Of a stretch of DNA of 64,000 nucleotides, positions 7,563 through 53,552 are shown piece by piece (position 1 is the stretch's first letter; each line of letters opens with the position of its first letter). The DNA lies in the IMG/VR virus record IMGVR_UViG_3300027823_000001, positions 36,096-100,095 of that record; one strand, 5' to 3'. A program made the position numbers and the translations under genes. Under the pieces are notes generated by a model. The model saw only the letters and a program-made list of their open reading frames with translations. It made no database searches and was not told where the DNA came from. This stretch comes from a virus.

Positions 7563-7601
7563 GACCCCCACGGCGCCACAGGGCGCGACTGAGAGCCCGC
7601 C

Positions 7602-34300: not shown

Positions 34301-37300
34301 GTGACCACATCACAGATCACGTCGGCTGACGGCGGCGTGAACACTGACGGTCTTCTGAAAGGCCTTCGGCACACGCTCTCGAACGGCGCGCGCTTCAAGC
34401 TCGGCTCGCATCAAGAGGAGTTCCTCAGGGTGTGTGCTCGTGCTGAGGGGCGCACGATGGCTGCTCACTTCATGGGCACAGGCAAGACGATCGCCTCGCT
34501 TGCCGCCATCAAGATGATGAAGAACGCGAAGAAGCCCGACGGCACACCCATCGCAGGCTCTCCGCGCAAGCGCGTCGCGATCGTGGTGCCGCTCAATACA
34601 GCGGTGCAGTGGCAGGTGCAGACTCAGCAGTTCACCGAGAGCGGAGCCACGCTCATCGGCTCCGGCACGCTCGCAGGGGCTGTGCAGGCCTTCTCGCCGA
34701 AGAACTGGCCGCCGCGCAAAGCGGGTGAGGCTGAGGATGTCTACATGGGCCGCGTGAAGCACGCGCGCGACGTGTGGGCAGCCAAGACCGCGGGAGCGTG
34801 GATCCCGGAGAACACGCCGTCTGACGATGTGGTGATCATCCCCTTCGAGTATTTCCGAGACAACGAAGCGGACCTGCGCGCGCACGGTGGCTTCGACGGC
34901 ATCATCATCGACGAAGCGCACGCGATCGCTCGGACCAACGAGCTGTCTCGCGCGGTCGAGCGCTGGAACCCGGGCATGAACATGCTGCTCATGCTCACGG
35001 GCACGCCGATCACGAATCGCCTGAACACCATCCCTCGCTACTTCGACATCCTCACGAACGGCAAGAGCCCTTTCGGTACAGAGGCGGAGTTCTCGCAGCG
35101 CTACCTTCAGCCTAGCGCTGTCATGCTAGCGAACGGCTCGAAGAACCCTCCGAGGACGGATCTCAATCCGCAGCGCGCCGCCGAGCTGGCTTCCTACCTC
35201 TCGACGCGCATGCACATCGCGCTCACTGAGGATGTGAAGGGCAAAACGATGCCCGCGGTGCTGCTCGATGAAAATCAGCCCGCGCACATGGTGGGGATGC
35301 AGGAGAAGGTCTACCGCCTCGCGATGGCGGCCATGAGCGAGACTGAGATGCTTGCCTTGGAAGAGGCTGGCGCACTCGGTACGGATGAGGCTGCCGCGTT
35401 CTCAGGTGGCACGCGCCGCAAGGTGAACGTCGCGCGCTCCTTTGCCAACTCGCCGGGCTACAAGCCTCCTGACCAGCGTGAGTTCGTGACCTTCGTCGAG
35501 AAGGTGGCGAAGAAGAAGGGCAAGACAGGTAAGACCGAGGTCGAGGAGACAGAACGCGTCTTCATGTTGCCGGACTACAAGCGCTGCGTAGGGAAGCCCC
35601 CTCACGGCTTCGGCGGCAAGTGGCCGAGCATGCGTGATGTGGAGAAGGGGCGCATCTCCGACGGTGAATACGAGGTGCTCTCGTTCTACGCGACCACCAT
35701 CCTCGGTGTGGACTACGAGAAGACCCTTGCAGGATCCGAGATCAGCAAAGAGCTGCTCAAAGACATCAAGAAGGGTACGGTGCACGGCGCATCGTGGGGA
35801 AAGATCTCGAACCCCGACTACGGTCCCGAGGGCGCCATCTCGCGTGGCTACCTCGACCTCGACGGCAACCTGAAGCCGATGATCGCGGAGTGGGGAGACG
35901 AGAAGTTCGCGGTGCCCATCGGCACCAAGTTCATCCGCGACCCGTCCAAGAAGGCGTCGGGCCTCTACTACCATCAGGACGACTGGGACTTCACGGGGGC
36001 GTTCTCGGACACAGTGGAGGGCACTGACGACGCTGACGACGATGAGAGCGTCGAGGAAGCGGACGGCGAGAAAAAGAAGAAGGGGCTTCAACAGCAGAAG
36101 GCGAAGAACTCCTCGCTGTCCATTCAGCTCTCTCCGCTTCGGCGCCGCGAGCGCGCTGCGTTCGATGTCTCAATGACGGCGAACAGCGCGAAGGCGGACG
36201 AGCTTGAACGCTACATGACCGAGCGCATGAACCCTGTGACGGGCGGCGACCCCGACTCGCAGTTCATCTTGTTCGGCAACAGGATCGGATCCTCGTGCCG
36301 CGCGATGGAATCGAAGCTGCGCACGCTCGGCATGATGGACATCAACGAAGCGCTCGGACACGAGAAGACCGGCTACTCGTCTGCGGACGACAAGAAGCGA
36401 CATCCGAAGTCGGGCTACTTCGTCACCTACTTCGGCAAGGGTGCGACGCTCGGTGATCGCGACATCAACTCTGAGATCTTCCGCAAGCAAAAGGACGACA
36501 CGGGTCGCGACACGGACACGAGCATGTTCGTGCATCGCACCATGACCGGATCGATCGGACGCCCTCCCGCAGTCGGTACCTTCAGCGAGGGCTGGTCACG
36601 CGCGGAGCGCTCGCGCATCTCCAAGCTGTTCGCAGGTCCGAACGGCGACGGCGGGATCGAAGTCCCGCTGAGGGTGACCGCCCGCATCGTCGGAGACGAG
36701 ACGCGCCCTGCGTTCGTCTACGAAAGCGATCTGAGCGCTGCGGATCGCAAAGCAGTGCAGGAGCTGGAAGCGAAGCGCAATCAAGCACGGTTCGAGGACA
36801 AGACTGCGTTCGAGACGCAGCTCAATGCCATCTTCAGCAAGTACCTGACTGACCGCGCGCCGCTGTCGGATCACCAGATGTGTGTGTTCAACAGCTGCAA
36901 GGTGATGGTCGCCAGCGACGCAGCGCAGGTCGGCCTTAACTGGGGCAATGCGGGCGAGGTCGTCATGTACGACTCGCTGCACTCTCCGATGCAGGAGTGG
37001 CAGCGCATCACGCGCGCAGCCCGGATGCTGGACGCCATCATCCCGGACAACGCGCGCGCCGTGTTCGACAAGCTCGGAGAGCACATCCGCACGTTGGAGC
37101 AGGCGGGCTCGTTCGCGGAGTACGCGAACATGGAGAGCGCTCTCCTAGTTACGCACGAGGCGTGGAACATGCTCGATGAATCCGAGCGTGCACAGGCGCA
37201 AGCCGCGGGCTTCAAGTTCGATCAGGCGACTGAGATGTACTTCGCACAGCGCGCGTTCGCCAAGATCGCGGAGATGCGACCGAAGGTGCGCGACCAGCTG

Positions 37301-48058: not shown

Positions 48059-50335
48059 ATGGCATCTGCGATCTTTTTTGGCGGGCGTCGGATCAACATC
48101 CCCGGCGTCTATTCCAAGCTGGACACCAGCGGGCTCTCGACGGTCTCACCGTCCGCAGTCGGCATCGTCGCACTGATCGGCGAAGCCGAAGGCGGCAAGC
48201 CGCTCTCGGCGGCTCCCGAGGATAGCGATCACACTCGCAGCGACTCGTTGCTCGAACGCTACCGCGCAGGCTCACCGCTCCGCACTGCGGGGAAGTTCGC
48301 GTTCGAGCCTGCGAACGACGACGCGGTCCCTGGCGGCGCACAGCGCCTGGTTTGCGTGAAAGTGAACCCTGCGGTTCAGAGCACCGTCACGCTGCAAGAT
48401 GCACTCGGTGACGATGCGGTCGTGATCACGTCGAAGGATTACGGTCTGTTCACGGCGCAGATCAACATCGACCTGGAAGCCGGCACCACGCTCGGGCAGA
48501 AGCTCACGGTCACGTTCGAGGATACGGTCGAGACGTTCGATGACGTGGGGGGCGATGAGAAGCTCTCGCTGCTCTACACGCCAGGCTCTGGCGGCTACAC
48601 CGGAACCACGGCGGGCTTCGGAACCGCGAGCTTCGCCGCGAACGGCGTCAAGACCAACATCGGGCTCACGACCGAGCGCACGGCAGAGATGAGCGCGACG
48701 CTCGCGCTGACCTACGTGTCGAGCAACGCAGGCGACACGACGCAGGAGATCACGGTGTACGGCCGCGATGGTGCAGGCCTCGCGGTGAAGGAGACCGTGG
48801 CGCTCACCGGCACGACACCTGTCGCAGGGACGCAGCTCTTCTCGTCTGCGTTCGGAGCGCGCAAGAGCGCTGCCACGCTGGGCACCGTCACGATCGCCGA
48901 CACGGCGCCCACGACCGTCTTCACGCTGACCAGCGCGCAGTCCACGCGCGGGCTGCTCGTGCTCACGAACGCGTCCATCGTGCCCGCGTCGAGTTCGATC
49001 GCGATCGACACGGGAGCGGCGACCACCTACGGCATGATCGTCACGACCGATGCGGCGGGCGCCGAGGTGCTGCAAGCGCTCGACTTCACGGTCGCCACGC
49101 CGATCACGATCACGGGCGCAGGCAAGCGGGTCACGTACATCGCGCTCGGTGACGTGGCTGCGGCGCGCACCGTGACGCTCACCGCGCGCCTCACCACGCT
49201 CGCCTACGCGTCGTTCTCTACGATCCAAAGGATCACCGATGCGCTGAACGCGCTCGATGGCCTGACGGCAACCGCGGCCGTGTCGAACCCGACGACGTTC
49301 CTCGCCGCAGACATGGACCGCGCAGCCGTCGTCAGCATCCAAGCCGTCGATGGCGACTTCTTCGCGAACCTCGCGGACATCATCAGCGTGCTCGACCAAG
49401 GCTCGCAGCTCGTGAGCGCCGCGCGTCCCGCGTTCCCCGACGGCAACCTGACGCCCGCGAACCTTGTGTCGCCGGTGTATCTCGAAGGCGGTGACGAGGG
49501 CACGACCACGATCACGCAGTGGCAGGAGGCCTTCCGCCTCCTGCGCGAGCGACGCGTCACCACGATCGTCCCGCTCACTCGCGATTCGGCCGTCCATGCG
49601 CTGCTCAACCAACACCTGCGCTTGCGCGCAGGTGCGCTGCGCTCCGAGGCCAACGGCATCATCGGCCTCGCGAAGGCGGACGGTACGGGTGAGACCCGCG
49701 CGAACATCAAGTCTCAGATCATCGCGGTGCAGACGCGATCGATCTCGGCAGTCGCGCAGGAAGTGAAGCGCAACGATCCCGACACGGGTGAAGCGACGTG
49801 GTTCTCGCCCATCTACCACGCGGCCATCGTGGCAGGCGCACAGGCGGGCTCGCCCGTCGCCGAGCCGCTCACGCACAAGCGGCCCTTCGTGCTCGACATC
49901 CGCAACGATACGTCGTGGTCCGTGACCGACGACTCAGAGGAGATGATCGAGGCAGGTCTCATGTTCGCCGAGAAGCGCGAGAACGAGGGTATCCGCTGGG
50001 TGCGCTCGGTCACCACGCACATCGCCGACGACAACCCGATCTTCTCCGAACTCAGCAGCAACGAATCGGCGGATCAGTTCGCCTTTCAGTTCCGCGCCGC
50101 GCTGGAGCCTCGCATCGGTCGCCGCGGGCTCGGGTCTTCGGCGGGCGCGATCAAGGGCATGGCGAGCGACGCTGCGGCGCGCTTGGTGGACGACGAGATT
50201 ATCGTCGCGTGGCGCGCTCTCTCGGTCGAACAGATCGGCGACACGTTCCCTGTCAGCATCGAGGTGGCTCCTGTCGAGCCTACCAACTTTATCCCCGTAA
50301 CGATTCATCTGACTCGCTTCCGCGCCACGGCGTGA
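48059..50335 (+). CDS. Tail sheath protein
   Basis: The contractile sheath subunit. ATG with GGAGGACTG upstream; 758 aa. The N-terminus RRINIPGVYSKLD is the typical sheath start (IPGVYS). There is a long Thr/Ala/Gly-rich middle (~120-430) which must be one or more added beta domains, and a C-terminal core with VTTHIADDNPIFSELSSNES, and RRGLGSSAGAIKGMASD. The final strand VEPTNFIPVTIHLTRF matches the last strand that holds neighbouring sheath subunits together. It is longer than the usual 400-500 aa because of the middle insertions. Confidence 0.9.
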   Translation: MASAIFFGGRRINIPGVYSKLDTSGLSTVSPSAVGIVALIGEAEGGKPLSAAPEDSDHTRSDSLLERYRAGSPLRTAGKFAFEPANDDAVPGGAQRLVCVKVNPAVQSTVTLQDALGDDAVVITSKDYGLFTAQINIDLEAGTTLGQKLTVTFEDTVETFDDVGGDEKLSLLYTPGSGGYTGTTAGFGTASFAANGVKTNIGLTTERTAEMSATLALTYVSSNAGDTTQEITVYGRDGAGLAVKETVALTGTTPVAGTQLFSSAFGARKSAATLGTVTIADTAPTTVFTLTSAQSTRGLLVLTNASIVPASSSIAIDTGAATTYGMIVTTDAAGAEVLQALDFTVATPITITGAGKRVTYIALGDVAAARTVTLTARLTTLAYASFSTIQRITDALNALDGLTATAAVSNPTTFLAADMDRAAVVSIQAVDGDFFANLADIISVLDQGSQLVSAARPAFPDGNLTPANLVSPVYLEGGDEGTTTITQWQEAFRLLRERRVTTIVPLTRDSAVHALLNQHLRLRAGALRSEANGIIGLAKADGTGETRANIKSQIIAVQTRSISAVAQEVKRNDPDTGEATWFSPIYHAAIVAGAQAGSPVAEPLTHKRPFVLDIRNDTSWSVTDDSEEMIEAGLMFAEKRENEGIRWVRSVTTHIADDNPIFSELSSNESADQFAFQFRAALEPRIGRRGLGSSAGAIKGMASDAAARLVDDEIIVAWRALSVEQIGDTFPVSIEVAPVEPTNFIPVTIHLTRFRATA

Positions 50336-50357: not shown

Positions 50358-50792
50358 ATGGCTGGTAGAGGCTTGGTTCTGAGTGGCGCGCGTGCGGTCT
50401 TCTTGATCAACGGCGTCAAGGTGATGTACGCGACGAACGTGTCGCTGTCCGAGGAGATCCAGCAGGATCCCGTGGACGTGCTCGACCAGTTCGAAACGGC
50501 GGAGTTCGTACCCACGGGCTACCGCTGCACACTCTCCGCGCAGATGGTCCGGGTGATCACCAACCCGATCAAGCTGCGCGACGGCGTTCGGCTCTTCCCC
50601 CGCGTCGAGGACATCCTCTCAGCACAGGAGATGACCGCGACGCTCATGGACCGCGTGACTGACACCGTGCTCGCCAACGTCGAGCGCGTGAAGGCGCAGC
50701 GCTACTCGCTCGCCGTGCCCGCACGAGGCATTGTCATGTCCGATGTGGACTTCGTCTGCATCCGCATCCGCGATGAGAGCGAGATCACCTGA
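50358..50792 (+). CDS. Tail tube protein
   Basis: ATG with AGGAGGCACCG. The 144-aa protein directly follows the sheath. ARAVFLINGVKVMYATNVSL, GYRCTLSAQMVRVI and YSLAVPARGIVMSDVDFVCI describe the beta-barrel of Mu/T4-type tube proteins. It forms hexamer rings stacked inside the sheath. A strong terminator follows, keeping this highly expressed pair apart from the chaperone and tape-measure genes. Confidence 0.85.
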   Translation: MAGRGLVLSGARAVFLINGVKVMYATNVSLSEEIQQDPVDVLDQFETAEFVPTGYRCTLSAQMVRVITNPIKLRDGVRLFPRVEDILSAQEMTATLMDRVTDTVLANVERVKAQRYSLAVPARGIVMSDVDFVCIRIRDESEIT

Positions 50793-50876: not shown

Positions 50877-51452
50877 ATGACGACGAAGAAGCAGAACACC
50901 GCAGCGATCCCCAAGGCCGATGACGACGAAGCGGACGCGCAGCTGCCGCCCGTGACGACGATCAAGCTCGACTGCACCGATGGTCGCGGCATCCACTACG
51001 AGGGCTGGTTCACCTTCAAGGTGCCGAACATGAAAGACACGATGGAGATCGGTCGGCGCAAGTCGCTGCTACTCCCCATCTCCATCGTGAACGACGTGAA
51101 CGCCGCCATGCTCGCGGAGATGATCGCGTACCTGGACGTGACGCTTCAGAAAGGCGACGACGGCGCGCGCATCCCGAAGTGGTGGAAGCCTCTCGACTTC
51201 TACGACGAGACGCCCATCGTGGCCCTCTACGCGGAGGCAACGGCTTACGCCAAGACCTTTCGCGGCGAGGCGCGTCCCAACGATCGAGCAGATGAGGAAG
51301 CTCCTGCGGAGCGACACGAAGACGCTGGTGGAAGCGATGTGGATGGAGACATTCAACCTCCCATCGAACGACGAACGATTCACCGAACTGACTCTGCACG
51401 AAGCACTTCGGCAGGTAGTGCTGGTCGAGGCATTCAAAGCGGAGAGGGCTGA
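50877..51452 (+). CDS. Tail assembly chaperone, upstream frame
   Basis: ATG at 50877 with GGAGG. The unshifted product is 191 aa. The first ~130 residues (PPVTTIKLDCTDGRGIHYEG, MKDTMEIGRRKSLLLPISIV, WWKPLDFYDETPIVALYAEA) are the chaperone domain; from residue ~135 the frame becomes low-complexity (HEDAGGSDVDGDIQPPIERR). It lies between tube and tape measure genes, as all tail-assembly chaperone pairs do. The next frame overlaps and would be added by a +1 frameshift at 51276-51279. Confidence 0.8.
   Translation: MTTKKQNTAAIPKADDDEADAQLPPVTTIKLDCTDGRGIHYEGWFTFKVPNMKDTMEIGRRKSLLLPISIVNDVNAAMLAEMIAYLDVTLQKGDDGARIPKWWKPLDFYDETPIVALYAEATAYAKTFRGEARPNDRADEEAPAERHEDAGGSDVDGDIQPPIERRTIHRTDSARSTSAGSAGRGIQSGEG
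51276..51279 (+). other. Probable programmed +1 frameshift site CCCA
   Basis: In the chaperone frame the codon is CCC (51276-51278) followed by A. Moving one base forward lets the Pro tRNA re-pair on CCA, and reading continues ACG ATC GAG CAG (TIEQM...) in the downstream frame. The join then reads FRGEARP-TIEQMRKLLRS, with no stop. There is no run of G or A/T slippery heptamer suited to -1 or -2. Phage PSA of Listeria is the known case of +1 slippage on CCC in structural genes. Confidence 0.55.
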
Positions 51453-51648
51453 TCGCATCAAGCGCGCACGCGAAGATGCAGCAGGTCTCGATCGCGCGCC
51501 CGAGGTGACTCAGGTGCGGGGCGAGGACGCTGAAGCGGTGGGCGGTCCGCGGCTCACTGGCGACGCCGAGTTCGATTCGATCGAGCTGATGGAGACAGAT
51601 CCACTTCGTGATCTGCCTCGCGTCAGAGTGACAGTGAAGCGAGGCTGA
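51292..51648 (+). CDS. Tail assembly chaperone, downstream part made by frameshift
   Basis: The frame is open from well before 51276 to the stop at 51648. The first ATG is at 51292 but has no ribosome-binding site. It adds ~122 residues to the chaperone: a helical domain (TLVEAMWMETFNLPSNDERF, HEALRQVVLVEAFKAERADR) and an acidic C-terminus. Position, relative length and frame are as for the gpG-gpGT pair of lambda or their myovirus counterparts. It ends two bases before the tape measure gene. Confidence 0.75.
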   Translation: MRKLLRSDTKTLVEAMWMETFNLPSNDERFTELTLHEALRQVVLVEAFKAERADRIKRAREDAAGLDRAPEVTQVRGEDAEAVGGPRLTGDAEFDSIELMETDPLRDLPRVRVTVKRG

Positions 51649-51650
51649 CG

Positions 51651-53552
51651 ATGCCTGAGACACGCCACCGCACAGTTCTTGAGGTCGGAGTAGACGATCG
51701 CAATCTTCGGCAGCTCGCGCCGACGATGGAGCGAGCGCTCAACCCGAAGGTCGCGGAGGCGTTCGAGAAGAGCATGGAGCGCACGACTGCTGCGCTCGGT
51801 AAGATGATCGAGCAGCAGACGAGGTTTGGTCGGCTGCTCGAAGATCAAGCGAAGCGCTCATCGCAGCGCAGCCGCGATGACGAACGAAGGCTGCGCAGTG
51901 CCGTCCGCTCCGGCACTGCGCAGGGGACGCTCGGCGCACACGCGCTGATGCGAGGAAACCAGATCGCAGGACAGATGCCCTACCAAGAGGGCTTTTTGAC
52001 TCAGATGCTGTCGGGCATCCCGATCCTGGGTCCTGCGTTCGGCGGTGCGGTCGGCGGCGCGCAGAGCTTCTACCAGAGCTTTGCGGCGCAGCAGATCGGC
52101 AGGGCCCGCGCCTTCGGCGCTACGGGCCTTGGCGGGCGCGCCTACGGCGCAGGAGGCCACGGACTAACCAGCGCAGGGATCGGGCTCGGCTACGGCCCCT
52201 CGGAGCTTCCAGGGCTCCTGGGAGGCTTCGCGCAGTCCAGCGGCATGCGCGGCTACGGACTTGGGAGCGCGGCCACGCGCGCGCTTCAGATGCAGGCGCT
52301 CGGCGGTATCGACATGGGTGCATCGGGAGCGCTCGGCAACGCGATGCTAACTGGTACCACGGGCAGCGGTACCAGCACTGCCGAGGATGGCGTCGGAGAC
52401 ATGCTCACAGAGGCCGTAGCCGCTGGGATCTCTGGCGGGATCCGCGAAGGTCGCATCGGCGAGATGCTTCAACAGATCAGCTCGGGTGTGACGCAGCTAC
52501 GCACACGCGGTGTCATGGTCAACGTTGGCGAGACCATCGCGCTCATGCGCGGGCTCAGCAACATGGGCGGCGCATTCGGTGGAGAGGCTGGCGTGGCAGC
52601 CGCTTCGTCGATCACACAAGGCTTCTCAGGCGCTCCCGATCGCGAAGGTGTGCTCTCCGCGCTCGCGATCCGGAACAGGATGTCGTCGAGCGGAGAGGAC
52701 TACGAGACGGCCTCGCGTTCCATCGAGTCGAATCCTGTCGAAGCCTTTCGATCCGTCATGGGCTCGCTCTCTCGCTTCCGAGGCACGCGTGGGTTCGAGA
52801 CGATGCTGCGCTCCAGTATGAGCGCTATGGGTGTCTCGCTCTCCCGCGAGCAAGCGCACCAGCTCGCCGGCATGAATGACTCCGACCTCGCAGGTATGAG
52901 CGGTGGGACATCCGATGCTGGCGGTATCGTAGAGGGCTATCTGGCGAGCAACCGCGAGGCCTCGGCTGGCGTGATGGGCACGGCGAGCACCGAAGCAGGC
53001 TACGAGGCGCGGCGTGCTGGGATCGGCGCGGGCATGGGCGGCACCGTCACGGCGTACCGCGATCTCGAACTGAGCATGATCACCGCGATGCAGCCGATGG
53101 TGCAGAGCTTCGCGTCAGGCGTGCTGCGGGAGGTGAGTGGCCTCTTCAGCGCGTTCCAAGAGGGTGGCGTTGGAGGGCTGTTCGAGGCTGCCATGACGCG
53201 AGTCATCGAGGGCTTGCGCACGCTGGGCGAAGATGTGCTCCCCGAGCTGGTCGCGATACCTGGGCTACCTGACGACACTAGCGGGACCGACATGGCCCTC
53301 GATGCAGCCGATGCTGTCGGCTGGGCTCTCAACGAAGGCGCGGCTTCCGTGCTCGACGCCGTAGGCGCCGAGGGCTCTGTCTCGCGCAGCATGCACAGCA
53401 TGGGAGAAGCCCACCTGCGGAGCGGAGCTACGCGCCGAGGCGGCGCAGCGTCCACTGACTCTGCAACCATCGACACGCCTGGCGGCGCCGTGCGCGTTGA
53501 GACGACAACCACAGTCACTCCGGTTGTGGATGACTTCGAGTCAGCACGGTGA
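51651..53552 (+). CDS. Tape measure protein
   Basis: This protein fixes tail length and interacts with the chaperones encoded upstream. ATG at 51651. The 633-aa protein starts with helices (LRQLAPTMERALNPKVAEAF, KMIEQQTRFGRLLEDQAKRS), then a long Gly/Ala/Met/Ser-rich middle with hydrophobic segments (SGIPILGPAFGGAVGGAQSF), and helices again. This is normal for tape measures, but it is short for a myovirus, so the tail may be short or the tape measure incomplete. Confidence 0.82.
   Translation: MPETRHRTVLEVGVDDRNLRQLAPTMERALNPKVAEAFEKSMERTTAALGKMIEQQTRFGRLLEDQAKRSSQRSRDDERRLRSAVRSGTAQGTLGAHALMRGNQIAGQMPYQEGFLTQMLSGIPILGPAFGGAVGGAQSFYQSFAAQQIGRARAFGATGLGGRAYGAGGHGLTSAGIGLGYGPSELPGLLGGFAQSSGMRGYGLGSAATRALQMQALGGIDMGASGALGNAMLTGTTGSGTSTAEDGVGDMLTEAVAAGISGGIREGRIGEMLQQISSGVTQLRTRGVMVNVGETIALMRGLSNMGGAFGGEAGVAAASSITQGFSGAPDREGVLSALAIRNRMSSSGEDYETASRSIESNPVEAFRSVMGSLSRFRGTRGFETMLRSSMSAMGVSLSREQAHQLAGMNDSDLAGMSGGTSDAGGIVEGYLASNREASAGVMGTASTEAGYEARRAGIGAGMGGTVTAYRDLELSMITAMQPMVQSFASGVLREVSGLFSAFQEGGVGGLFEAAMTRVIEGLRTLGEDVLPELVAIPGLPDDTSGTDMALDAADAVGWALNEGAASVLDAVGAEGSVSRSMHSMGEAHLRSGATRRGGAASTDSATIDTPGGAVRVETTTTVTPVVDDFESAR

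Follow-up and report, generated by a model that had tools for sequence, protein, structure and literature searches.

How ribosomes reach the second of two overlapping reading frames in a phage tail module is the question raised by a locus in the DNA stretch analysed here (the window; 64,000 nucleotides, positions 36,096 to 100,095 of the 100,095-base virus record IMGVR_UViG_3300027823_000001). Two open frames, both on the plus strand, sit between the tail tube gene and a putative tape measure gene. Frame A (50877 to 51452) encodes the 191-residue short form of a tail assembly chaperone (TAC), read in the 0 frame. Frame B, open from 51142 to 51648 and overlapping A by about 310 nucleotides (nt), is displaced by +1 (equally −2) relative to A. 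A preliminary description had recognised the offset, the position between tube and tape measure and the TAC, all of which are borne out by the relatives, and had proposed a +1 frameshift at CCC-A (51276 to 51279). Our comparisons support the direction of that shift but not its site. Judging from the aligned sequences, ribosomes very probably slip +1 at UUU-C (51258 to 51261), 18 nt upstream of CCC-A, and the shift site is now placed by comparative evidence instead of being guessed from a single genome.

Relatives were searched for with the A, sheath, tube and fused proteins, and comprise viral contigs and one contig of a metagenome-assembled genome (MAG). In every relative that carries both parts, frame B is at +1 to frame A. 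Because this phase is constant, the A/B split reflects neither chance nor faulty sequencing. An indel introduced during sequencing or assembly could conceivably split one gene in any single contig, but the tool results give it no support, and the identical +1 split is found in dozens of independent contigs as well as in isolate genomes; the relatives refute this explanation, and its probability is practically nil. The same check applied to Myrna and Pupper returned −1, and therefore the procedure does not predetermine a +1 outcome.

The junction carries TTT followed by a pyrimidine (TTT-Y) in 26 distinct homologous loci and in 20 annotated isolates. All 20 isolates (SPO1, LysYB1, vB_EalM-132, K, A511, Twort, EfaM_A2, SAC12B, BSP10, Maine, Adastra, Goe26, DELF3, Touem01, PHB04, Dolphis, ST4, fHe-Yen8-01, phiT5282EW and HF2) have TTT-CGN with the +1 phase. 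The junction codons are ACC TTT CGC in the window, CGA TTT CGC in locus L002, AGG TTT CTC in L004, CGA TTT CAC in L006 and ACG TTT TTC in L013. Phenylalanine at the junction is encoded by TTT in 30 of 30 loci, as compared with 75 TTT to 129 TTC among the other phenylalanine codons of those open reading frames (Fisher 2.5e-12, not corrected for the tree). Within the close GC-rich group, TTT occupies the site in nine of nine members, with 3 TTT to 49 TTC elsewhere (Fisher 1.3e-8, relatedness uncorrected). The base that follows the junction TTT is C or T in every case, as is required for re-pairing to UUY.

A slip of −2 near the UUU would lead into the same frame, the phase being identical to +1, and the TAC gene of phage Mu uses a −2 shift (PMC3498833). 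Conserved re-pairing for such a slip is absent, because the bases preceding TTT vary (ACC, CGA, AGG, ACG, TAC and TGG), whereas for +1 the move from UUU to UUY is always possible. We regard the −2 slip as extremely unlikely.

Comparison shows not only the +1 phase and the conserved UUU-Y but also selection on the +1 frame right after UUU-Y. The +1-frame proteins of the relatives, read on from TTT, align from the next residue, with the phenylalanine at the join invariant, and the extension contains a conserved motif, W....[FY].LP..[DH], in which LP is invariant. Across ten pairs, the 18 nt after TTTY differ 25 times at third, 10 times at first and 9 times at second positions of the +1 frame. 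Between the window and L002, the stretch from TTTC to CCCA contains four differences, of which three fall at +1-frame third positions and none at a 0-frame third position, which indicates that ribosomes have entered the +1 frame by the time they reach CCC-A.

This last result bears directly on the proposed slip at the proline codon CCC, since the differences ahead of CCCA already fit the +1 frame. CCC can re-pair to CCA, both frames are open at 51276 to 51279, and +1 slippage at CCC-U is documented for Listeria phages and SPP1. CCC-A was, however, described as the single junction, and it occurs in frame three times within the overlap, the others being at 51213 to 51216 and, further on, in CCT CCC ATC. 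At the position corresponding to 51276, relatives carry TCC-A (L002), GCC-G (L004) or GAG-C (L006); the slip is unsupported because the relatives lack CCC-A while all of them have UUU-Y. CCC is a common codon in the window phage (15.3 per 1000), no stop codon comes next and the downstream structure is not unusual. Nor is Listeria phage PSA the precedent it was taken to be, given that its +1 sites belong to the genes for the capsid and the major tail protein, not to a TAC gene (PMC5009743). Nearer precedents for +1 in a TAC gene are gp10.2-gp11.1 of SPO1 and the HF1-group haloviruses (PMC7230728). A slip at CCC-A is, for these reasons, highly unlikely. It would give the Lys-C junction peptide TFRGEARPTIEQMRK, and the UUU-C shift would give TFAARRVPTIEQMRK (both predicted).

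A second conserved feature lies upstream of UUU-C. In 23 of 26 loci, a GGAGG that resembles a Shine-Dalgarno (SD) sequence (51233 to 51237 in the window) occurs with an offset of exactly −25 relative to TTT, so that the gap to the shift codon is 20 nt. The offset is −28 in L039 and −26 in L006; in the latter, GGAGG persists although the residues encoded there have changed. Elsewhere, 26 of 227 comparable glutamate codons are within GGAGG. When 22 N-domains were aligned by codon over 119 columns, the three most conserved wobble positions were the T of TTT and two in GGAGG. GGAGG is under constraint at the nucleotide level.

One could envision that no frameshift takes place and that the +1 frame has a start of its own, either ATG at 51292, which has an equivalent in L002, or an ACG/ATG codon 11 nt before TTT, with GGAGG serving the latter. 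An A[C/T]G codon is indeed found in the +1 frame 9 nt past GGAGG. This codon is ACG in 19 of 26 loci, ATG is not enriched, and no conserved start codon was found downstream of GGAGG. Many relatives (L012, L013, L023, L025, L030, L034, L036, L039, PHB04 and Touem01) have no ATG, GTG or TTG in the interval from the shift site to the conserved motif, and an independent start leaves the invariant TTT unexplained. Independent initiation is thus very unlikely. As to slippage at UUU-Y, GGAGG at its fixed 20-nt distance may tune the +1 slip in the window phage's family, a role that we put forward tentatively and with somewhat more doubt than belief. Known SD-like stimulators act at about 3 nt (prfB, +1) or about 10 nt (dnaX, −1) from their sites. 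Because the 20-nt spacing resembles neither, GGAGG would in that role belong to a new class of cis-acting elements for +1 shifts, and its strict placement raises a simple testable question, namely, how an internal SD sequence could act on +1 slippage.

The mechanism that we infer from these observations, including the slip itself, its efficiency, the re-pairing in the P site and a role of both proteins in tail assembly, would proceed as follows. Most ribosomes would stay in the 0 frame and make the TAC short form, which consists of N-domain residues 1 to 128 and a 63-residue 0-frame tail. A fraction would slip +1, the peptidyl-tRNA-Phe moving from UUU (51258 to 51260) to the overlapping UUC (51259 to 51261), after which the +1 frame would be read as GCG GCG and onward to yield a fusion of 256 residues. 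At the predicted junction, AYAKTF would be followed by AARRVPTIEQMRKLL, that is, AYAKTF would run on into AARRVPTIEQM. The 128-residue C-terminal extension (51262 to 51648), where protein conservation begins just past TTTC, would be made by shifted ribosomes only, and would add a second, mainly helical domain.

Several points count against slippage at UUU-C. The support for the fusion product is comparative throughout. Nothing points to a slow codon in the A site, since CGC, which occupies it, is the most frequent arginine codon of the window phage (44 per 1000); a slow A-site codon was rejected as a stimulator, given also that relatives carry CTC, CAC or TTC in place of CGC. Downstream RNA structure did not go beyond that of dinucleotide shuffles, the energies matching in nearly all loci. 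The AlphaFold2 model of the C-domain is partly confident (predicted local distance difference test, pLDDT, 77), and confident just for the first 70 or so residues, and a structural search with it gave no significant match.

The N-domain model (residues 1 to 128), folded separately from the C half, each as a table-11 translation, has a pLDDT of 86 and is built of a beta-hairpin plus three helices. The final helix stops at residue 127, directly before the shift phenylalanine. The best named structural match of the model was the TAC of Bacillus phage JL (Foldseek, E 1e-4). Frame A matched the TAC entries 1038 and 25000 of PHROG, and PHROG TAC matches were obtained for 11 of 13 fused relatives. 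PDB and Pfam searches for the TAC returned no match, and neither did tblastn of the window N-domain against phage records. The PHROG and structural matches, the synteny and the conservation of the +1 phase support identification of A and B, which overlap between the tube and tape measure genes, as a TAC pair of the gpG/gpGT type in a contractile-tailed phage; the tape measure is assigned by position only. In lambda, too, overlapping chaperone frames precede the tape measure gene and a frameshift yields the long form (PMC5009743), but the shift is −1 and no sequence similarity to the window is shown.

Sites of this kind are already known from the annotation of SPO1 and the proposal for the HF1-group haloviruses. 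The records of SPO1 and Adastra state a +1 product and that of Maine a frameshift product. SPO1 gp10.2/gp11.1 and the TACs of other Herelleviridae (K, A511, Twort and others) are like the window in their placement between tube and tape measure, their +1 phase and their UUU-CGN junction, and the LP motif of their C-domains is related to that of the window. Unlike the window, those inspected have no GGAGG at −25, their E-site codon is often UCC and their overlaps are short, amounting to just about 16 nt around TTT-CGN in K, A511, Twort, Maine and EfaM_A2. We found no text in the open-licence literature that names UUU-CGN in Herelleviridae TACs, and earlier reports may exist. The Phabquatrovirus group of PHB04, Touem01, Dolphis and ST4 has [UCC/UCU]-UUU-CGN at a +1 junction, with the frames annotated as separate hypothetical genes. 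It differs in that two members, Touem01 and PHB04 (L015 and L016; TTT at 7568 and 7572), carry AAGGAGG 5 nt before UUU, which is nearer the prfB arrangement. For the HF1 group, TTT-CGC was proposed as the TAC shift site (PMC7230728), and our check confirmed TTT-CGN and +1 for HF2; its host is archaeal and no sequence relation to the window is shown. Outside phages, influenza A PA-X uses UUU-CGN, the same tetranucleotide, in the same direction (PMC3498833), and amalgavirus +1 sites are UUU-CGN as cited in PMC7230728; these systems involve eukaryotic ribosomes and unrelated proteins, and work alike without being relatives. Taken across Herelleviridae, the PHB04 group, the HF1-group haloviruses and the window phage's family, a +1 shift at UUU-CGN is suggested as the common rule for TACs. 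New here are the window phage's family as a case of +1 in a TAC gene and the strictly placed GGAGG 20 nt upstream.

The neighbouring genes, likewise on the plus strand, fit a tail module. The tail sheath protein (48059 to 50335; 758 residues) matches PHROG 279 (E 1e-47) and has homologues in 11 viral contigs and 161 phage records. It exceeds the profile (489 positions), and alignments with phage relatives fall into two pieces that together span no more than about 71% of the protein; this length and partial cover suggest a large inserted domain. The tail tube protein (50358 to 50792; 144 residues) matches PHROG 985, a virion structural protein (E 1.8e-6), and its gene follows that of the sheath in all relatives. 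The putative tape measure protein (51651 to 53552; 633 residues) gave no match in PHROG and Pfam searches; it follows the TAC, and homologues in the relatives occupy the same place. No phage tRNA genes were found in the window.

A distant TAC homologue with TTT-CGC and the +1 phase is present in L039 (JAHFDS010000046.1), a contig of a Myxococcales MAG and a single locus from one genome-collection scan; its binning may point to the host group. In many records of the groups compared here, the second frame stands as a gene of its own. The +1 extension of the TAC in K, A511, SAC12B and DELF3 is annotated as RNA polymerase or, as in K, A511 and SAC12B, its beta subunit (L058, 20478 to 21074; L059, 3447 to 4124; L065, 1149 to 1547; L072, 1122 to 1592), which, by position and frame, looks like a misannotation.
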